Below, one piece after another: positions 21,549-31,767 of a stretch of 64,000 bases of DNA. How positions within the stretch are numbered: the stretch's first letter is position 1; each line of letters starts with the position of its first letter. This DNA comes from Gemmatimonadota bacterium (GTDB lineage Bacteria > Gemmatimonadota > Gemmatimonadetes > Longimicrobiales > Gaopeijiaceae). Location of the stretch: NCBI GenBank assembly GCA_029262115.1, contig JAJCZZ010000099.1, positions 1-64,000 of the forward strand. The letters are read 5' to 3'. The notes under the pieces were generated by a model that saw only the letters and a program-made list of their open reading frames with translations, made no database searches and was not told where the DNA came from. The translations under genes were made by a program, and so were the position numbers.

Positions 21549-22220
21549 ATGATCAAGCTCAGAAACATTGAAAAGTCGTTCAAGACAGGCGCGGGCGAGA
21601 CCTTCGTGCTCCGGCGCATCAGCGGGGACATCGAAAAAGGTGAGTTCGTCACCATCATGGGCCCCTCGGGCGCGGGGAAGTCCACGCTGCTGTCGATCAT
21701 GGGCATGCTGGACGGCGACTGGCGCGGGGAGTACTACCTGCACGGCGAGCCCGTGCACGCCATGAAGCCGCGGGCGCGCATTGAACTGAACAAGAAGTAC
21801 ATCGGCTTCGTCTTCCAGCAGTACCACCTGCTCGACGACCTGACGGTCTACGAGAACCTCGAGATCCCGCTGTCGTACCGGAACGTGAAGCGCAAGGATC
21901 GGCAGGCGATCGTGGCGGACACGCTCGACCGCTTCCAGATCGTCGGGAAGAAGGATCTGTACCCCAGTCAGCTCTCGGGCGGGCAGCAGCAGCTCGTGGC
22001 GGTGGCCCGCGCGATCATTGCGGAGCCGACCATGATCCTGGCCGATGAGCCGACCGGTTCGCTCCACTCCTCGCAGGGCGGGATGATCATGGATCTCCTG
22101 GCTGAGTTGAATCGGGAGGGCACCACCATCATTCAGGTCACCCACAACGAGGCGTATGCGCAGTACGGCAACCGGATCATCCAACTGCGCGACGGATGGA
22201 TCGTGGAGGAGCAAGAGTAG
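21549..22220 (+). CDS. LolD/MacB-type ABC ATPase
   Basis: This 223-residue ATPase belongs to the group that energises MacB, FtsX and Lol-type mechanotransmission permeases. Walker A is GPSGAGKS, the signature LSGGQQQLVAVARAI and Walker B MILADEP. The D-loop region reads GSLHSSQG where the family usually has GNLDS, so an Asn and an Asp are replaced. The Q in the signature (normally R, GGQQQR) is also followed by L. Whether these changes slow ATP turnover is unknown. It lies directly before an NtrC-type regulator (8-base gap), and together with the upstream permeases it may form a regulated export system. Confidence 0.88.
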   Translation: MIKLRNIEKSFKTGAGETFVLRRISGDIEKGEFVTIMGPSGAGKSTLLSIMGMLDGDWRGEYYLHGEPVHAMKPRARIELNKKYIGFVFQQYHLLDDLTVYENLEIPLSYRNVKRKDRQAIVADTLDRFQIVGKKDLYPSQLSGGQQQLVAVARAIIAEPTMILADEPTGSLHSSQGGMIMDLLAELNREGTTIIQVTHNEAYAQYGNRIIQLRDGWIVEEQE

Positions 22221-22228
22221 GACGGGAG

Positions 22229-23587
22229 ATGCCGCACCGGATTCTCATCGCCGACGACCAGCCCGACGTTCTGGAGGCGCTCCGCCTCCTCCTCAAGGCG
22301 GAGGGCTTCGAGACCGAGACCGCGTCGTCGCCTCCCCTCGTTCAGCACGCCGTGGAGCAAGGGGACTTCGATCTCGCGCTGATCGACCTGAACTACACGC
22401 GCGACACCACGTCCGGGCGCGAGGGCATGGACCTTCTGTCGCGCCTGCACGAGTTGGACGCGACGCTTCCCGTAGTGGTCATGACCGCCTGGAGCAGCGT
22501 CGAAGGGGCCGTTGAGGCCATGCGGCGGGGCGCCCGCGACTATATCGAGAAGCCGTGGGACAACGAGCGGCTGCTCACGACCATCAAGACCCACGTCGAG
22601 TTGGCCCGCGCTCTGCGCCGCAGCCAGCAGCTCGAGGGCGAGAACCAGCGGCTCAAGGGCGACGGCGCCCCCGACTTCATTGCCGAGTCCAAAGCGATGG
22701 AGCCCGTTCTCGACGTCATCGAGCGGGTGGGGCCGTCGCGCGCGAATGTCCTGATCGTCGGGGAGCACGGCACGGGCAAAGAGGTGGTCGCCCGGTGGCT
22801 GCACGCGGTTTCCCCACGCGCGAAGAAGCCCCTGGTGGCGGTGAACGCCGGAGGCTTCAGTGAGGGGGTCTTCGAGTCCGAGCTGTTCGGCCACGTGAAG
22901 GGCGCCTTCACCGACGCCAAGACCGACCGCGTCGGCTGCTTCGAGTTGGCGCACGAGGGCACGCTTTTTCTCGATGAGATCGCGAACGTGCCTCTTCAGC
23001 AGCAGGCCAAGCTGCTCCGCGTCCTCGAGACCGGCGAGATCCAGCGGGTCGGCTCGTCCAAGCTCCGCAAAGTGGACGTCCGGGTGTTGTCCGCCACGAA
23101 CGCCACGCTGGGCGAAGCGGTGGCGGACGGGTCGTTCCGCGAAGACCTCCTCTACCGCCTGAACACCGTCGAGATTCGACTACCGCCTCTACGTGAACGT
23201 AGAGAAGATATCCCATTGCTGGCAAAGCACTTCCTGGCGCAGCACGCCGCGCATTATGGACGCGATCTCGACGGCTTCAGTTCGGCCGCGATGGACACGC
23301 TGATCCGTCATCCATGGCCGGGGAACGTTCGCGAACTGGAGCATGCGGTGGAGCGTTCGGTGCTGATGGCTCGCGGGGGACGAATCGACGCCTCCGACCT
23401 GGGGCTCCGCCGGAGGGAGGACGGCTCCGTTCTGATGGAGGAACTCACGCTGGACGACGCGGAGCGCATCCTGATCGAGAAGGCACTCGAGCGGTTCCAG
23501 GGGAACGTCAGCAAGGCCGCCGACGCCCTCGGCCTGTCTCGAAGCGCCTTATATCGACGCCTCCAACGGCATGACCTGAAGGAGTAG
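22229..23587 (+). CDS. NtrC-family sigma-54 response regulator
   Basis: This 452-residue protein has an N-terminal receiver domain with phospho-acceptor Asp53 in LIDLNYTR. The AAA+ domain has Walker A GEHGTGKE, the sigma-54 loop GAFTDA, Walker B GTLFLDEI and the R-finger region [14 protein letters not shown]-terminal Fis-type helix-turn-helix ([19 protein letters not shown]) completes it. GAFTDA is a common variant of GAFTGA. GGGAG lies three bases before the chosen ATG at 22229. It activates transcription from sigma-54 promoters when phosphorylated, presumably by the kinase encoded two bases downstream; target genes may include the upstream transport genes. Confidence 0.92.
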
Positions 23588-23589
23588 GG

Positions 23590-24939
23590 ATGCCCGGTTG
23601 GTGGCGGCGCCTTACGCACGACCGGCGGGTCCTGATTATGGCGTTCCTGATCGGGCTCCCCGGTCTGGCGGCTGCCTTTGGCCTGCTGTGGCTGGGGGAC
23701 TACTCCCCCAAGGTTCAGTGGTCCGTCACCGTCGTGCTGCTGACCTTGTGGTCGGGCACGACCATGGCGCTTCGGGAGCAGGTCGTCCGCCCGCTCGGGA
23801 CGTTGGCGAACATGCTTGCGGCGCTTCGCGAAGGCGATTTTTCGATCCGCGCCCGCGTCGGCGACGGCACCGACCCGTTGAGCCTGGCCTACCTCGAGGT
23901 CAACGCGCTTGAGGAGATCCTGCGCGAGCAGCGGCTGGGAGCCGTCGAGGCCACCGAAACGCTTCGGAAGGTGCTCGAAGAGATCGACGTCGCGGTCCTG
24001 GCGTTCGACCCCGGCCAGACGCTCCGGTTGGTCAACCGGGCAGGGGAGCGGCTGCTCGGCCAGCCGGCCGCACGGCTCATCGGAAAGACGGCGGAGGATC
24101 TCCGCATGGACGACGCGCTCCACGGCGTTGCACCCCGCACGGTCGAGCTCGCCTTTCCGGGAGGGACCGGCCGGTGGGAGTTGCGCCGTTCGGTGGTACG
24201 CCAGGAAGGCTATCCCCTTCAACTCCTGGCGTTTTCGGACCTGAGCCGCGCCCTCCGTGAGGAAGAGCGGCAAGCATGGAAGCGCATCATCCGGGTGCTC
24301 TCCCACGAGATCAACAATTCGCTCGCGCCCATCAAGTCGATCTCAGGCAGTCTCCAGGGGATGCTCGACAAGGACATCCTCCCGGAGGAGTTGGACGAGG
24401 ACGTCCAGCGGGGGCTCAAGGTGATCTCCTCGCGGGCCGAGGCTCTCGGCCGGTTCATGGCCTCCTACGCGAAGCTGGCGCGTCTACCCAAACCGGATCG
24501 CGCGCCCGTGGTGGTGCGCGGGCTGGTCCGGCGCGTGGCCGATCTGGAAACACGTCTCAGCGTGCAGGTCGTGGACGGGAACGACGTGACCGTGTCGGCC
24601 GATCCCGACCAGCTCGAACAGGCGCTGATCAACCTGGTTCGCAACGCCGTGGACGCGACCCTGGAGGCCTCCGATGGCACCAACGGCACGGTGACACTCC
24701 GGTGGCTGGTGAAGGGTGGAACGCTCCACATCCTCGTCGAGGACGAGGGGCCCGGCCTGGGCGACACCGGAAACCTGTTCGTGCCCTTTTATACGACCAA
24801 GCCGGGCGGCTCCGGGATCGGGCTCGTGCTGTCCCGGCAGATCGCCGAAGGGCACGGCGGGTCACTCGAATTGGAGCACCGGGAACACGTTGCGGGCGTT
24901 CGGGCGCGCCTCACGCTTCCGATGGACCTTTCGGCCTGA
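23590..24939 (+). CDS. Sensor histidine kinase (NtrB/NtrY-like)
   Basis: This 449-residue kinase has two membrane helices (about 15-35 and 44-62) with almost no periplasmic loop, then a HAMP-like linker and a PAS-type domain (about 125-215). The dimerisation domain has phospho-acceptor His239 in RVLSHEINNSLAPIK, and an HATPase_c domain (NLVRNAVDATLEA, EDEGPGL, GSGIGLVLSRQI) follows. The short periplasmic part suggests it senses a membrane or cytoplasmic signal. Its partner is the NtrC-type regulator encoded two bases upstream, so the pair is one operon. Confidence 0.9.
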   Translation: MPGWWRRLTHDRRVLIMAFLIGLPGLAAAFGLLWLGDYSPKVQWSVTVVLLTLWSGTTMALREQVVRPLGTLANMLAALREGDFSIRARVGDGTDPLSLAYLEVNALEEILREQRLGAVEATETLRKVLEEIDVAVLAFDPGQTLRLVNRAGERLLGQPAARLIGKTAEDLRMDDALHGVAPRTVELAFPGGTGRWELRRSVVRQEGYPLQLLAFSDLSRALREEERQAWKRIIRVLSHEINNSLAPIKSISGSLQGMLDKDILPEELDEDVQRGLKVISSRAEALGRFMASYAKLARLPKPDRAPVVVRGLVRRVADLETRLSVQVVDGNDVTVSADPDQLEQALINLVRNAVDATLEASDGTNGTVTLRWLVKGGTLHILVEDEGPGLGDTGNLFVPFYTTKPGGSGIGLVLSRQIAEGHGGSLELEHREHVAGVRARLTLPMDLSA

Positions 24940-24977: not shown

Positions 24978-25376
24978 CTACCCCTCGGGAGCGGGCGCGA
25001 CCACCTCGATGGGGTAGTCGAGTTCGGCCCACACGCCGCCCGGCGTCTCGACCCGCACGGTCATCATCCAGTCACCGGCGACGGGAAAGGGGAAGCGAGC
25101 GACCCGATACTGGCCGGCGCCCTGTCCCATGGCGGTGTCGACGGCCACGGCCACGTCCTCCCGTAGGGCCGTCACGATGACCCGGTCGCCATTGCGAGGC
25201 CGCCAATCCACGTCGGCGACTTCGAGCACGACGTCGGCCTGGCCGATCACCGGTGGGTCGGGCTCGAAGGACAGCTTCACCTGCAGGTCCCGATTGCCAC
25301 GTCGGTCGGGTCCGCAGGCGGAAGCGATCACGATGGCGACAACGAGGGTCGAGCGGAGGAGGATTCGCGAATTCAC
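24978..25376 (-). CDS. YtkA/FixH-like periplasmic lipoprotein
   Basis: With the chosen GTG start at 25376 this is a 132-residue protein with a signal peptide and a Cys in ASACGPDRR that can act as a lipobox. The mature domain has the beta-sandwich pattern of YtkA/FixH-like proteins: SFEPDPPVIGQADVVLEV, then the methionine-containing AMGQGAGQYRVARFPFPVAGDW, then a final strand. Such domains often bind copper or help cytochrome oxidase assembly, but a copper role is only a family-level suggestion here. The frame is open 150 bases further upstream without a convincing ribosome site; the start is uncertain. Confidence 0.7.
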   Translation of the reverse strand: MNSRILLRSTLVVAIVIASACGPDRRGNRDLQVKLSFEPDPPVIGQADVVLEVADVDWRPRNGDRVIVTALREDVAVAVDTAMGQGAGQYRVARFPFPVAGDWMMTVRVETPGGVWAELDYPIEVVAPAPEG

Positions 25377-25513
25377 GGTTCGAAAGACAGCGAGAAGACG
25401 GCAGTGCACACCAGCCTGGAATACTACGCTGTGCGACTTCTCCCAGACAGGGATGAGCGGCACCCGGATACATCGACCGCCGATTAACCGCTCGGCACGC
25501 AACTGTCTGGCCG

Positions 25514-26113
25514 ATGCCTGTGTCACACGGGGTGGAAGAGAGCACTACTGGCGATCACCGAGCTCCTCTTTTGACTGACATCCAAACGATCGAACGAGCC
25601 ATGGCGGGCGATGAGCGTGCCTACCAGGCCATTTACGAGGCGAATGTGGACCGTATCTACCGACTCGCGTACCGAATGGCGGGGGACGATGACCTGGCGA
25701 AGGACTTCACCCAGGAAGCGTTTCTCCGTGCGTTCTCGCGGCTCGATCAATTCCGCGGCGATGCGGCGTTCTCCACGTGGCTCCATTCCATTGCGGTCTC
25801 CGTGTCCCTGAATGGGCTGCGGAAGGTTGATCGCCACCGCAAGCGCGAACGGTCGCTGGAGGACGCCGCTCCTGTCGCGAGCCGCAACCGACAGTTGGAT
25901 CCGGGGGTGCGCGACCGGCTGAACGAAGCCGTCGACACGCTGTCGGAGATCTACCGGACCGTCTTCCTCATGCACGATCTGGAGGGCTACAGCCACGGCG
26001 AGATCGCGGAGACGTTGGGGGTGGCGGAGGGGACGTCGAAAGCACGCCTGTTCCGGGCCCGGGCCAAGCTCCGGGACGCCCTGGGAGAAGAGATGCAGGA
26101 GTATGTCCGATGA
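25514..26113 (+). CDS. ECF-type RNA polymerase sigma factor
   Basis: This 199-residue protein has the two conserved sigma regions of ECF factors. Region 2 reads DRIYRLAYRMAGDDDLAKDF then AFSTWLHSIAVSVSLN. Region 4 reads YRTVFLMHDLEGYSHGEIAE then GVAEGTSKARLFRARAKL. It lacks the region 3 of housekeeping sigmas. It directs RNA polymerase to envelope-stress-type promoters when released by its anti-sigma factor, probably the product of the next gene, whose start overlaps this stop (ATGA). The start is uncertain between ATG 25514 and several in-frame codons up to TTG 25574. Confidence 0.9.
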   Translation: MPVSHGVEESTTGDHRAPLLTDIQTIERAMAGDERAYQAIYEANVDRIYRLAYRMAGDDDLAKDFTQEAFLRAFSRLDQFRGDAAFSTWLHSIAVSVSLNGLRKVDRHRKRERSLEDAAPVASRNRQLDPGVRDRLNEAVDTLSEIYRTVFLMHDLEGYSHGEIAETLGVAEGTSKARLFRARAKLRDALGEEMQEYVR

Positions 26114-26766
26114 GCGATGACAGGAAATTCGACGAAGCGCTGGCCGAGTTGCGGGCCGGGTACAACCCCCCCCCCGAGACGCCGGTGGCCGAGATGTGGA
26201 CCGTCGTTCGCGCGGGGCTTCCCGTGGGCCAGGGCACTCCGGTGCGCTCTCTGGATGAGGCTCGGTCGCGTCGGAGTCGGACCCCCCATCGTTCGTTCGG
26301 GTGGGCCGTTGCCGCGGCTGCGGTCCTGATGTTCGGCGTCGGGATCGGTCGGATGACGGCGCCTGTCGCGCCCGACGAGAGCACCGTGGCATCCGAGCCG
26401 GACCGCTCTCTCTTGATGATGGCGGCCGCCGATCACCTCGGGCAGAGCGAGTCGTTCCTGACGGTGGTCCGGACCGAAGCACGGGTGGGCACCCTCGACC
26501 CGGAGATGGTGGGGTGGGCCCGGGGTCTCTTGATGCAGACCCGACTGTTCCTCGACGTGACGGACCGGGGCGCTCAGCCCGCCTTCACGGAGCTGATGGA
26601 GGATCTGGAACTGATCCTGGCTCAGGTGGTGTCGGTGGCCGAGGGCGGGCAGGCGGATCCCGACCGCACGCGTACCGAGTTGGACCTGGCCCTGCGGGGC
26701 CTGGAAGATCGGGAAGTGATGACCAGAATCCAGGCGGCGTCCGCGCCGACTTTGGCGGGAACTTGA
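26110..26766 (+). CDS. Membrane anti-sigma-like protein
   Basis: This 218-residue protein has a cytoplasmic N-terminus of about 60 residues, one membrane helix (about 62-82) and a 135-residue periplasmic domain rich in helices. Its position, with an ATGA overlap to an ECF sigma gene, and its topology fit an anti-sigma factor. The usual zinc-binding HxxxCxxC motif of many such proteins is absent from its N-terminus, so it would be an unconventional one. The periplasmic domain could sense the HEAT-repeat proteins encoded just downstream. Anti-sigma function is inferred from context. Confidence 0.75.
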   Translation: MSDDRKFDEALAELRAGYNPPPETPVAEMWTVVRAGLPVGQGTPVRSLDEARSRRSRTPHRSFGWAVAAAAVLMFGVGIGRMTAPVAPDESTVASEPDRSLLMMAAADHLGQSESFLTVVRTEARVGTLDPEMVGWARGLLMQTRLFLDVTDRGAQPAFTELMEDLELILAQVVSVAEGGQADPDRTRTELDLALRGLEDREVMTRIQAASAPTLAGT

Positions 26767-26777
26767 GGAGGATGACC

Positions 26778-28163
26778 ATGCGGAACGTGACGATAGCAAT
26801 GGCGGTGGGGGTGTGGGGCGCGGCAATGGCGCTGCCCGCGGAAGCCCACCAGGCGAGCCTCCGTCCCAAGGCGGCGGAGAGCGTCGTGGCTCAGGCGGAA
26901 CCGGGAGGTGGGGCTCCCCCCGCGGCGTGGCTGCAGGAAGACCCCGGCAGCCGGAGCTACACGGCCGCCCGCGATCTTCTCAACCGGCGGCGGTACCGGG
27001 AGGCGGCCGACGGCTTCGCCGCGTTGCGGCGCGACCACCCGAGGTCGGGGTACGTGGCCGATTCCTATTACTGGCAGGCGTTTGCGCTCTACCGCGAGGG
27101 GGGCCGCGAGAACCATCGCACCGCTCTGGACCTGCTCGCGACGCAGCGCAGTCGACATGCGGATGCCCGCACGGCTTCCGAGGGGGAGGACCTGCGCGTC
27201 CGCATTCAGGCGGAGCTGGCACGCGGCGGCGACGCCGAGTCGGCGGAATACATCGCGCAACAGGCGTCGCAGCCCTGCGATTCGCAAAAGCAGCCGATCC
27301 GTGCCGCGGCCCTCAGCGCGCTGCTGAACATGAACGCGGATCAGGCCGTGCCGATCCTGCGCGAGGTTCTGCAGAACCGTGACGAGTGCTCGGTCGAACT
27401 GCGCCGCCGGGCCGTGTTCCTGGTCTCCCAGAAGATGAACGACGAGTCGGTCGACATCCTGCTGGATCTTGCGCACGGAAATCCCGATCCGGACTCCGAA
27501 GTGCGCGAACAGGCCGTGTTCTGGCTGTCACAGGTGCGGTCCGAGGAAGCTCTGGACGCCCTGGCGTCGATCCTGCGGGAAACCCAGGACCGCAATCTTC
27601 AGGAGAAGGCGATCTTCGCCATCTCACAGCACAACAGCGCGCGTGCCGTGACCATGCTGAGGGACTATGCCGAACGGACCGACGCCGACGCAGAGGTTCG
27701 CTCGAAGGCGATCTTCTGGATCGGGCAGAGCGACCGGGCCGGGGGCTCGCGCTACCTGAGGGAACTCTACGGCCGCCTGCAGGACGCGGAGCTCAAGGAG
27801 CGGGTGATCTTCGGCGTGGCGCAGTCCAGAAGTGCGGAGAACCACCGCTGGCTGCTCGACCGGGCTGGTGACCGCTCGGAGACGATCGACCTGCGGAAGA
27901 AGGCGCTGTTCTGGGCAGGGCAGTCGGGTGCGGTGGACGTGGCGGCGCTGCGAAGCCTGTATGGCTCCTTCGAAGACCGTGAGATGAAGGAGCAGATCAT
28001 CTTTGTGGCGTCCCAGCGGAACCGGCCGGGCGCCGTCGATTTCTTGATGGAGGTCGCGCGTTCGGAGACCGACGGGAAGCTTCAGGAAAAAGCGATCTTC
28101 TGGCTCGGCCAGAGCAAGGATCCCCGGGTGGCGCAGTTCCTCCTCGAGTTGATCCGGCTGTGA
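26778..28163 (+). CDS. Exported HEAT-repeat protein with TPR-like N-terminus
   Basis: This 461-residue protein has a signal peptide (cleavage near AEA-HQA, residue 24). A TPR-like region follows (about 57-125, TAARDLLNRRRYREAADGF). Then come eight regular HEAT-like repeats of 31-34 residues, each centred on a motif such as EKAIFWLGQS or KKALFWAGQS (about residues 212, 246, 278, 311, 343, 376, 407, 439). I chose ATG 26778 because GGAGG lies seven bases before it, while ATG 26772 is too close. It is a periplasmic solenoid likely to bind partner proteins. It ends in a GTGA overlap with a second HEAT gene. Confidence 0.82.
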   Translation: MRNVTIAMAVGVWGAAMALPAEAHQASLRPKAAESVVAQAEPGGGAPPAAWLQEDPGSRSYTAARDLLNRRRYREAADGFAALRRDHPRSGYVADSYYWQAFALYREGGRENHRTALDLLATQRSRHADARTASEGEDLRVRIQAELARGGDAESAEYIAQQASQPCDSQKQPIRAAALSALLNMNADQAVPILREVLQNRDECSVELRRRAVFLVSQKMNDESVDILLDLAHGNPDPDSEVREQAVFWLSQVRSEEALDALASILRETQDRNLQEKAIFAISQHNSARAVTMLRDYAERTDADAEVRSKAIFWIGQSDRAGGSRYLRELYGRLQDAELKERVIFGVAQSRSAENHRWLLDRAGDRSETIDLRKKALFWAGQSGAVDVAALRSLYGSFEDREMKEQIIFVASQRNRPGAVDFLMEVARSETDGKLQEKAIFWLGQSKDPRVAQFLLELIRL

Positions 28164-28948
28164 TCCCCCGGGCCGCGGTGCTGGCCCTGGTTCTGGCGGC
28201 GGTCCCCGCGACCGTCGCCGGCCAAGACCTCATGGCTCGCGTCACCTCGGTCGCGGATGGCACCGTGCGCTTCCGGTACGCGACCCGCCCGGACGTTCAG
28301 ATCTGCGACCGGGGCATCCGGATGGGTGAGGACGACCACATGATCTGGCAGGGGGGGCGGTGGGACGACCACGACCCTCGCAACTGCCGGTACGGCCCCG
28401 CCGAAGTGGAGGTCGAGGTACGGGCCGACGGCGTGCGCGACGTGACGATTCTCGTCCCGTGGCGATCGGCCACGGAGGGCGCCGCCGACCTCGGTGAGGT
28501 CCCGGCCGACGTGGCGGCGGACTTCTTCCGTTCCGTCGCTATGGGGGCGGGCTCCGACCGGGCCGCCAAGGAAGCGATCTTTCCGCTGGTTCTGATCGAC
28601 ATCGAGGAGGTCTGGCGCCCGCTGCTGGCTGTGGCGCGCGATGCGCGGGCCCCACGGGGCGCTCGAAAGAACGCCCTGTTCTGGGTGGGACAGGAAGCGG
28701 CCGCCGCTGCCACGGTCGGTCTCGCGGATGTCGCCTGGGACGAAGAGGAGGACCAGGACGTGCGAGACGCGGCCGTGTTCGCGCTCTCTCAGCGTCCAGC
28801 GGACGAGGGGGTACCGATCCTGATGGAGCTGGCGCGGGACGCCGACCAGGCCGAGACGCGTCGAAAGGCCATGTTCTGGCTGGCGCAGAGCGGGGACGAG
28901 CGCGTCGTGCGTTTCTTCGAGGAGATCTTGCTGGGGACGGGTCGGTAG
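28160..28948 (+). CDS. Exported HEAT-repeat protein
   Basis: This 262-residue protein starts at GTG 28160, overlapping the stop of the previous gene. It has a signal peptide (cleavage after VAG, residue 21) and a distinct N-terminal domain of about 90 residues with two cysteines (ICDRGIR and RNCRYG). Three or four HEAT-like repeats follow with the same motifs as its neighbour (KNALFWVGQ, DAAVFALSQ, RKAMFWLAQ). The shared repeat motif suggests the two proteins arose by duplication or bind together. It is the last gene of the sigma-factor operon. Confidence 0.8.
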   Translation: MIPRAAVLALVLAAVPATVAGQDLMARVTSVADGTVRFRYATRPDVQICDRGIRMGEDDHMIWQGGRWDDHDPRNCRYGPAEVEVEVRADGVRDVTILVPWRSATEGAADLGEVPADVAADFFRSVAMGAGSDRAAKEAIFPLVLIDIEEVWRPLLAVARDARAPRGARKNALFWVGQEAAAAATVGLADVAWDEEEDQDVRDAAVFALSQRPADEGVPILMELARDADQAETRRKAMFWLAQSGDERVVRFFEEILLGTGR

Positions 28949-29165: not shown

Positions 29166-30797
29166 ATGTTCAAAACGGTCCGTGCCCGGATCATCACCAT
29201 CCTGATCGTCCTTCTGGGCGCTGGATGGCAACTCTACTCGAAGGGTCTCAAGCTCGGCCTGGACCTTCAGGGCGGGATGCACCTCGTCCTCGAGGTGAGA
29301 GACCCCGAGGGTACCCTTACGGCAGACGCCAAGTCGGACATGATCGACCGTGTGGACCGGATCATCCGGACACGGATCGACGAATTCGGAGTCGAGGAGC
29401 CGCTCATCCAGAAGGTCGGGCGGGAACGGCTGATCGTCGAACTCGCTGGCATCAGCGACGAGGATCAGGCGAAGGCCATCATCTCCGAGGCCGCCTTCCT
29501 GGAGTTCAAGGAGGTGCACCCGACGACGGACGTCGACAACGCGCTCGCCCGGATCGACCGCGCGGTGGTCGTGGCCCTCGGGGTCGACTCGATCCGGGCG
29601 CTCGGGCGCGACATCACCGGGACGTCGACGGGCTCGCAGGCCGACATCGAATCGCTCTTGTTCGGGGGGCAGGACTCGACGGCCACCGGTCAGGACACGG
29701 CGCAGGTCGCCGAGGGCGACACGGCGTCGATGGACGAGGAGGATGCGCTCCGCCCGTTCTCCTCGCTCCTGAACATCGGGGACGCGCTCGGTACCTACCT
29801 GGTGGAAGTCGACGACGTGCCGATCGCCACTACGCTCCTCGCGCTCCCCAGCGTGCAGCGTGCGTTGCCTCGTGATCGGGTCCTGCAATGGGGCGACGAG
29901 GTGGTGGCCATGGGCGCGCGCAACTACCGCCGGCTCTACGTACTGGAGGAAGATCCGTTCCTGACGGGTGAGTTCCTCGAAGACGCCACGGCGCAGCGGG
30001 ACCCCCAGTTCAATCAGGCGCAGGTTCAGTTCGAACTGAACCGGGCCGGCGGGCGTCTCTTCTCGCGGTACAGCGGTCAGCACGTCGGCGACTATCTGGC
30101 CATCGTGCTCGACGACGAGGTCGTGAGCGCCCCCGTGATCCAGGCCCGCATCGGCGCGCGCGGCTCCATCGAGATGGGCAACGCCGACCTCGAGGAAGCC
30201 CGCGATCTGGCCCTCGTGTTGCGCGCGGGTGCCTTGCCGGCTCCCGTGGACATCGTCGAGGAGCGCACGGTGGGTCCGTCGCTCGGCCAGGACTCCATCG
30301 AGCAGGGCGAGGTGGCCGGGGTGGTCGGGCTTCTCCTCGTCGTCGTCATCATGATCGGGTACTACCGGATGGCGGGGGTCATGGCGGTGGCTGCCCTTGC
30401 GGTCTACGTGATCCTGGTGCTGGGCGGGCTGGCCGGGATCGGTGCCGCGCTCAGCGTACCGGGCATTGCCGGGCTCATCCTCTCGGTCGGAATGGCCGTG
30501 GACGCGAACGTGCTGATCTTCGAGCGCATCCGTGAGGAGTTGACCATCGGTCGAGCGCCGCGCACCGCGGTCGACGAAGGCTTCGGCCACGCGCTCTCGG
30601 CCATCGTCGACGCGAACATCACGACGCTGATCACCGCGCTGATCCTCTTCCGCTTCGGGACGGGTCCGGTGCAGGGCTTTGCCGTGACGCTGTCCATCGG
30701 AATCGTTGCGTCGTTCTTCTCCGCTCTCTTCGTGACCCGCTCCTTCTTCCTGCTCTACCTGCAGGGACGCAAGGCTTCGGATCCCATCAGCATCTGA
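29166..30797 (+). CDS. secD: Protein translocase subunit SecD
   Basis: This 543-residue protein has an N-terminal helix followed by GLDLQGGMHLVLEV, the SecD signature. A large periplasmic P1 domain follows, then the RND-type membrane half with GMAVDANVLIFERIREE, the motif in helix 4 that carries the proton-coupling Asp. It uses the proton gradient to finish preprotein translocation through SecYEG. Compared with the E. coli protein it is shorter in the periplasm but has an acidic insertion (about 165-200) rich in Asp, Gln and Thr. secF follows after ten bases. No yajC is visible in the window. Confidence 0.95.
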   Translation: MFKTVRARIITILIVLLGAGWQLYSKGLKLGLDLQGGMHLVLEVRDPEGTLTADAKSDMIDRVDRIIRTRIDEFGVEEPLIQKVGRERLIVELAGISDEDQAKAIISEAAFLEFKEVHPTTDVDNALARIDRAVVVALGVDSIRALGRDITGTSTGSQADIESLLFGGQDSTATGQDTAQVAEGDTASMDEEDALRPFSSLLNIGDALGTYLVEVDDVPIATTLLALPSVQRALPRDRVLQWGDEVVAMGARNYRRLYVLEEDPFLTGEFLEDATAQRDPQFNQAQVQFELNRAGGRLFSRYSGQHVGDYLAIVLDDEVVSAPVIQARIGARGSIEMGNADLEEARDLALVLRAGALPAPVDIVEERTVGPSLGQDSIEQGEVAGVVGLLLVVVIMIGYYRMAGVMAVAALAVYVILVLGGLAGIGAALSVPGIAGLILSVGMAVDANVLIFERIREELTIGRAPRTAVDEGFGHALSAIVDANITTLITALILFRFGTGPVQGFAVTLSIGIVASFFSALFVTRSFFLLYLQGRKASDPISI

Positions 30798-30807
30798 CGG
30801 ACCATTC

Positions 30808-31767
30808 ATGAGATTCTTCGCGAACGCCCACTACAACTTCATCGAGCAGCGTCGACGGGCGTATATCGTCTCCGGCATCGCGCTTCTGATGGGGATCGGT
30901 GCCATGGTCACGAACGTCGTGTCCCTCGGCTCCTGGCAGAACTACGGCGTCGATTTCACAGGGGGATCCCTGGTGGAAGTGCGCTTCGATCAGGATGTGT
31001 CCGCAGGTGATATCCGTGACGCGCTCGGCGGGGCCAACGCGCCGCCGATCACCCGGTTCGGCCAGGATCGCGACTTCGTGATTCGTGGCAGCTTGGCGGA
31101 AGATGCCTCGATCGAGGAGGTCGCTACCGGACTGGAGAGCCAACTCGAAGCCGCGTTTGGGGCCGGCTCGTTCGAGGTCGTGCGCACGGAGTTGGTGGGG
31201 GCGAAGGTCGGGAGCGAACTCCAGCAGAAGGCGCTCGGCGCCATTCTGTTTTCCTTTTTGCTGACGCTCGTCTACATCGCCTTCCGCTTCGAATTCCGAT
31301 TCGGCCTCGCGTCGATCGCGGCCACCCTCCACGACATGATCATCACGCTCGGGTTCCTGGCGCTGTTCGACGTGGAGATCGCGCTCCCCACGGTCGCCGC
31401 CATCCTGACGATCCTCGGGTACTCGCTGAACGACACCATCGTGGTGTTCGACCGTATCCGCGAGAACATGAACAAGAAGGGCGCGAGAAAGCGTGACCCC
31501 ATCGAGCTGATCAACGCCTCGATCAACGAGACGTTGCCCCGCACGATCCTTACGTCGAGCACCACGCTCGCCGTGCTGTCGGCGCTTCTGATCCTCGGTG
31601 GGCCGGTCCTCTTCGACTTCACCGTGGTCCTGATCCTCGGGGTCGTGATCGGAACGTATTCGTCGATCTTCGTGGCCAGCCCGGCGCTTCTCGAGATCCA
31701 GAAGCGCTTCGGCGACGGAAAGACCGGGAAGGAAAAGCGGCCGAGACCCGAACCCGCGACGGTGTGA
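30808..31767 (+). CDS. secF: Protein translocase subunit SecF
   Basis: This 319-residue protein has six membrane helices and the SecF motifs VDFTGGSLVEV near the first helix and NDTIVVFDRIRENM in helix 4, which includes the conserved Asp. It works with SecD in a proton-driven complex that pulls proteins out of SecYEG. The C-terminus is Lys/Arg-rich and cytoplasmic (GKTGKEKRPRPEPATV). Its stop overlaps the tatD start as GTGA, so the housekeeping operon continues. Confidence 0.95.
   Translation: MRFFANAHYNFIEQRRRAYIVSGIALLMGIGAMVTNVVSLGSWQNYGVDFTGGSLVEVRFDQDVSAGDIRDALGGANAPPITRFGQDRDFVIRGSLAEDASIEEVATGLESQLEAAFGAGSFEVVRTELVGAKVGSELQQKALGAILFSFLLTLVYIAFRFEFRFGLASIAATLHDMIITLGFLALFDVEIALPTVAAILTILGYSLNDTIVVFDRIRENMNKKGARKRDPIELINASINETLPRTILTSSTTLAVLSALLILGGPVLFDFTVVLILGVVIGTYSSIFVASPALLEIQKRFGDGKTGKEKRPRPEPATV

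Follow-up and report, generated by a model that had tools for sequence, protein, structure and literature searches.

The window analysed here, a 64,000-nucleotide stretch of Gemmatimonadota DNA, contains four co-directional genes that encode an ECF sigma factor, a one-span membrane protein (gene 2) and two exported HEAT-repeat proteins, H1 (gene 3) and H2 (gene 4). ECF sigma systems are one of the main bacterial ways of sensing the surroundings, and for most of them the signals are not known. The locus raises the question of whether gene 2 is the anti-sigma factor of its neighbour and whether the HEAT proteins act on it, as an earlier note had proposed in a model in which the solenoids bind the sensor domain of the anti-sigma factor and gate sigma release. 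At the level of sequence, our comparisons establish the gene set, the gene order, the anti-sigma identity of gene 2 and the conservation of an ECF-type promoter upstream of sigma. We favour, as reasonably probable, the reading that the four genes form one autoregulated envelope-signalling unit, in which H1 would be a dedicated partner of the anti-sigma factor and H2 an auxiliary output.

Operon layout and the promoter of the sigma gene

The four genes are coupled in the way that the earlier note had read them (Table 1). The end of the sigma gene (stop at 26113) overlaps gene 2 as ATGA at 26110; gene 2 has its last base at 26766 and is separated from the H1 ATG at 26778 by an 11-base gap, with AGGAGG next to it and with an alternative in-frame ATG possible at 26772; and a GTGA overlap joins H1 to H2 at 28160. 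Upstream of the operon lie genes for an NtrC-type response regulator and a histidine kinase (22196–24939), and downstream those for SecD and SecF (29166–31767). A gene for a FixH-like small lipoprotein (24978–25526, minus strand, start likely near 25377) is divergent to the sigma promoter, and a similar divergent gene adjoins the operon in the genome G043 (locus L127).

Protein families were searched in Pfam, NCBIfam and PHROGs. The product of gene 1 has the make-up of an ECF sigma factor, with sigma-70 regions 2 and 4 only: it matched Pfam Sigma70_r2 (E = 1e-15) and r4_2 (8e-19), and NCBIfam TIGR02937 above its cut-off (8e-28). Its gene is preceded by a GCAACC...TGTC element, whose AAC and GTC are exactly 18 bases apart in 63 of 69 loci (about 57 distinct sequences) from several phyla, the outgroups included. 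A stricter form of the element was present in 51 loci, compared with a mean of 0.4 in mononucleotide shuffles. As judged from its sequence, this conserved site is a promoter of the AAC/GTC type placed before the operon of the ECF factor itself. Since such a promoter is conserved before the sigma gene, the operon is likely to be autoregulated by its own sigma factor.

The position of the promoter also bears on the start of the sigma gene. The earlier note had the gene begin at 25514, a position that falls within the conserved promoter; translation from there is therefore implausible. The likely start is TTG at 25571, which is matched by TTG or GTG starts in relatives.

Table 1 Positions of the operon features within the window
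Feature	Position	Strand	Basis and remarks
ECF-type promoter GCAACTGTCTGGCCGATGCCTGTGTC	25499..25524	+	AAC at -35 and GTC at -10, 18 nt apart; predicted to be read by the sigma factor of the same operon
ECF sigma factor	25571..26113	+	TTG at 25571 is the likely start, since 25514, where the ORF opens, falls within the promoter; Pfam, TIGR02937 and promoter position
Membrane anti-sigma factor (gene 2)	26110..26766	+	zf-HC2 in orthologues; AF2 model; sigma tree
Exported protein H1	26778..28163	+	Signal peptide, TPR/CpoB-like part (59–122), HEAT solenoid, eight F-x3-Q motifs
Exported protein H2	28160..28948	+	Signal peptide, N-terminal beta domain (34–114), three HEAT repeats that share the H1 motif

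The anti-sigma factor and its zinc motif

The gene 2 protein of the window matched no Pfam family, and in NCBIfam it gave a weak anti-sigma match (E = 5e-5) that fell below the cut-off. The HX3CX2C (zf-HC2) zinc motif is absent from it, as had been remarked before, and the window protein itself thus lacks the mark of class I. It has one membrane span, at about residues 62–82. In an AF2 model (pLDDT 85, about 95 in the periplasmic bundle), two short cytosolic helices (residues 3–17 and 26–36) are followed by a transmembrane helix (64–82) and a periplasmic helical bundle (99–211), so that the periplasmic helical domain claimed in the earlier note now has a confidently modelled form. Searching the PDB with Foldseek returned no significant structural match for this bundle (none under E 0.06; four-helix chemoreceptor sensors appeared at insignificant E), and a PDB sequence search with the anti-sigma profile returned no match.

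The orthologues of gene 2 that lie between the same two neighbours are more telling. Of 60 such proteins, 20 matched Pfam zf-HC2, the zinc-finger domain that marks class I anti-sigma factors, and in these forms the zinc motif is followed by one membrane span and then by a homologous periplasmic domain. They occur in f3 relatives within the Gemmatimonadota and in KSB1, Aminicenantes, Calditrichota and Acidobacteria records. In single-sequence phmmer comparisons, the window protein matched the zinc forms of f3 genomes at 4e-25 to 7e-16 and the best outgroup zinc forms at about 4e-5 to 7e-5, the outgroup orthologues being only about 13–24% identical to it; phmmer and the tree together make it an ortholog of the zinc members in the same operon. 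Moreover, W30, in the helix preceding the membrane span, is invariant in zinc and zinc-less forms. Because its same-operon orthologues carry zf-HC2, we accept gene 2 as an anti-sigma factor, an assignment that is well supported by these comparisons and that the earlier note had put forward as an inference.

We considered whether gene 2 might instead be an unrelated membrane protein lying by chance between the sigma and HEAT genes. The window protein taken alone, with neither a Pfam match nor a zinc motif, would allow this. The zf-HC2 domains of the same-operon orthologues, the weak NCBIfam match and the W30 common to both forms argue against it and make it extremely unlikely; on the strength of the zf-HC2 domains we rejected this reading.

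In a tree built from the sigma factors next to gene 2, from which the window row was omitted as a duplicate locus while its close relatives were included, the zinc state changes once (SH-aLRT 92; the branches are long and we give this moderate weight). Most simply, the zinc motif was lost a single time, in the ancestor of the main Gemmatimonadota clade, and the short zinc-free two-helix form of gene 2 arose from a class I domain. Of the ECF factors in Gemmatimonadetes, about 79% are neighboured by a class I anti-sigma factor (PMC7406223). The zinc-bearing orthologues are like class I anti-sigma factors of the zf-HC2/ZAS kind, such as RsiW and ChrR, whereas the main Gemmatimonadota clade, including the window, lacks both the motif and the helices that carry it. 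In this it resembles the class II system CnrH-CnrY-CnrX, in which two helices lie around the sigma factor (PMC4598750): the cytosolic part of gene 2 is likewise short and zinc-free, with two predicted helices and a transmembrane anchor in the model. It differs from that system in that its orthologues carry a class I zinc-finger domain and in that the operon has no CnrX-type metal sensor. The locus thus offers a traceable case of an anti-sigma domain that loses its zinc core and still holds its position in the system; this case is relevant to the relation between class I and class II anti-sigma domains.

Two exported HEAT proteins in a conserved gene set

Both H1 and H2 consist in part of HEAT helical repeats, as they match HEAT_2/HEAT_PBS in Pfam (HEAT_2 at E = 1e-32 for H1 and 3e-7 for H2), and the HEAT part of H2 also matches alphaRep structures (Foldseek, E about 1e-4). 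Both N-termini carry Sec-type signal peptides, judged by eye, in agreement with the earlier claim that the two proteins are exported. H1 contains exactly eight [AVIL]F-x3-Q motifs at a spacing of about 32 amino acids, far beyond the shuffled proteins (mean 0.26, maximum 3); the eight regular repeats with an aromatic-glutamine motif described in the earlier note are thus borne out, as is their sharing by H2, which has two strict F-x3-Q copies plus MFWLAQ. In H1 the motifs alternate between an FWxGQ/SQ form and an FxxSQ/AQ form. This alternation holds in most H1 relatives, with up to 12–14 matches in KSB1 members, and the strict motif is lost in some divergent Gemmatimonadota H1 proteins (for example L024, L025 and L028).

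The description of the two proteins as HEAT solenoids holds for their repeats and leaves out a further part of each. Residues of about 59–122 in H1 match the TPR part of the Tol-Pal protein YbgF/CpoB (NCBIfam TIGR02795, 4e-9); at 37 bits against a cut-off of 90.1, and with the match confined to the TPR part, this does not make H1 a member of that family. H2 has a separate N-terminal beta domain (34–114; AF2 pLDDT 89) that belongs to no known family. H1 and H2 therefore have the repeat fold of PBS-type HEAT proteins (alphaRep, YibA, CpcE/F) but differ from them in the alternating FWxGQ/FxxSQ motif, the export signal, the fused TPR or beta domain and the constant link to a sigma and an anti-sigma factor.

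The model of the earlier note would fail if homologues of gene 2 occurred without a sigma gene; these were sought, and the outcome did not refute it: the sigma gene adjoins gene 2 in 100 of the 102 loci with enough flanking sequence (99 by script, plus L010). The two sigma-less exceptions are L155, which has a run of N exactly at the place of the sigma gene, and L033, a very similar counterpart locus. H1 directly follows gene 2 in 101 of 101 loci, usually overlapping it or starting within a few bases; it has no other copy in its own genome, and among 98 relatives it was not found apart from gene 2 except in G076, where the contig ends near the H1 start. H2 or a second HEAT gene is present in 64 of 68 testable loci. 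The periplasmic domain of gene 2 was found in 212 of 395 Gemmatimonadota genomes, mostly as one copy, and no natural fusion of anti-sigma and HEAT proteins was seen among the loci read. Three genomes retain decayed remnants of the operon, in which fragments of the sigma and HEAT genes lie behind the promoter (L124, G007:C72; L128, G049:C88; L129, G020:C40). These remnants show that the operon is lost as a unit and help to account for its scattered distribution within the family to which the window belongs.

The four-gene set is a real envelope-signalling module that has been kept together across several phyla, with the same gene order and the same promoter in KSB1, Aminicenantes, Calditrichota and Gemmatimonadota. 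Since most loci come from one phylum and the MAG data are redundant, the order could in principle reflect the genomic conservatism of a few related genomes and have no functional meaning. This explanation is highly improbable, however, as order and promoter persist across the four phyla despite the low identity of gene 2, and the outgroup sigma factors sit on deep, separate branches of the sigma tree.

Some f7 genomes (L137–L153) have two operon copies, on separate branches of the sigma tree, and several of them have an extra H2-like gene. One locus in a record named Gemmatimonadota (L070) is a zinc-type operon that groups with the KSB1 members, suggesting transfer or misnaming.

Possible role of the HEAT proteins and other candidate targets

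In the reading that we favour, the anti-sigma factor would sit in the inner membrane and hold the ECF sigma factor by its short cytosolic two-helix domain, presumably a zinc-finger type that has shed its zinc helices. Sigma release, by proteolysis or conformational change, would follow a signal sensed by the periplasmic helical bundle, and the free sigma factor would then transcribe its own operon and a few genes for exported proteins from AAC-N18-GTC promoters, with positive feedback. H1 and H2 would thereby be made in step with the sigma factor, and H1 might set the sensitivity of the anti-sigma factor, as RseB or the FoxA signalling domain does. Given its constant association with gene 2 and the parallels with RseB and FoxA, H1 is on the balance of probability a dedicated periplasmic partner that tunes the anti-sigma factor, with H2 as an auxiliary output.

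In the E. coli RpoE-RseA-RseB(-RseC) operon, as here, the exported partner is encoded downstream; RseB, unlike H1 and H2, is neither a HEAT nor a TPR protein. The two systems also have in common an ECF sigma factor, a one-span anti-sigma factor with a periplasmic sensor part, and autoregulation, which is likely here. They differ in that the periplasmic domain of gene 2 matches no solved structure and in that partner binding is putative here. Binding of RseB to RseA prevents RseA from being cleaved (PMC4598750), and in Fox signalling (FoxI-FoxR-FoxA) a periplasmic partner domain protects the C-terminal domain of the anti-sigma factor from proteolysis (PMC11637429). Protection of the FoxA type may serve as a model for the role of H1, although in the Fox system a TonB-dependent receptor supplies the partner through its signalling domain.

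Alternatively, H1 and H2 could be outputs only, namely exported HEAT/TPR scaffolds that the sigma factor induces to repair or stabilise the envelope, without feedback on the anti-sigma factor. The operon promoter, which is of the sigma factor's own kind, is consistent with this, as are the divergent second HEAT gene (H2) of G081, which has its own copy of the AAC-N18-GTC promoter, and the resemblance of the TPR part of H1 to CpoB/YbgF of envelope maintenance. Moreover, when evolutionary distances were compared by partial correlation, the anti-sigma and HEAT proteins showed no special link: the periplasmic domain of gene 2 tracks the sigma factor (0.32) more than the two HEAT proteins (0.14 and 0.13). 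As these correlations do not single out the HEAT proteins, an output-only role keeps real weight. The association of H1 with the anti-sigma gene in every one of the 101 loci is nevertheless tighter than would be expected of a mere regulon member, and we regard a role as outputs only as rather doubtful.

A bolder proposal, which we make tentatively as possible rather than probable, is that the module represents an undescribed and widespread form of ECF signalling, in which a dedicated exported TPR-HEAT solenoid binds and gates the periplasmic helical bundle of the anti-sigma factor and a zinc-binding class I domain has shrunk to a class II-like two-helix form within one lineage, the rest of the system remaining unchanged. 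An operon that combines sigma and anti-sigma genes with exported HEAT proteins is apparently undescribed so far, as a full-text literature search, which did not cover the main ECF classification paper, found no paper describing one. Casas-Pastor 2021 is reportedly a census of ECF groups, and this sigma group may already be numbered in the ECF classification. Since the partner set is fixed across phyla, the promoter prediction is clear and one further target is probable, the signal, the release of the sigma factor and the regulon can be put to the test.

The regulon is small or loosely defined, given that the genome of the window contains 8 promoter-like sites against 2 in the reversed control. 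When 98 relatives were searched with a stringent form of the promoter, 18 sites were found, and the reversed control gave 2; of the 18, at least seven are sigma-operon promoters, three head the decayed operons and one is that before the divergent H2 gene of G081. In the window's genome, one site lies 38 bases upstream of a gene for an exported DUF4097 protein (Pfam PF13349; L111:1565-2389, G000:C8:36433-37257). Among close orthologues of this gene, across families, 15 of 16 carry the element; of 14 upstream regions from more distant paralogues none does, and the background is 0.09 per region. The DUF4097 gene is thus a probable further target of this sigma factor, if not an exclusive one. In genomes without the operon, its orthologues retain the AAC-N18-GTC element in 6 of 9 cases, five of the six with CGTC instead of TGTC at -10, whereas 15 of 17 elements in genomes with the operon have TGTC (Fisher p = 0.003, calculated post hoc and ignoring relatedness). 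We rejected the DUF4097 gene as an exclusive target, as a similar promoter precedes it where the sigma factor is absent; another ECF factor can therefore probably read this promoter.

Four of seven other sites in the window's genome precede PadR-ADOP permease operons (L114, L115, L116 and L118), as does a site in G163 (L190). The L115 site, almost perfectly palindromic, may be an operator for PadR rather than a sigma promoter. The same ECF-type promoter was also seen before a gene for an exported beta-propeller-like protein in G052 (L121) and G025 (L135), in the latter just 5′ of the sigma operon.
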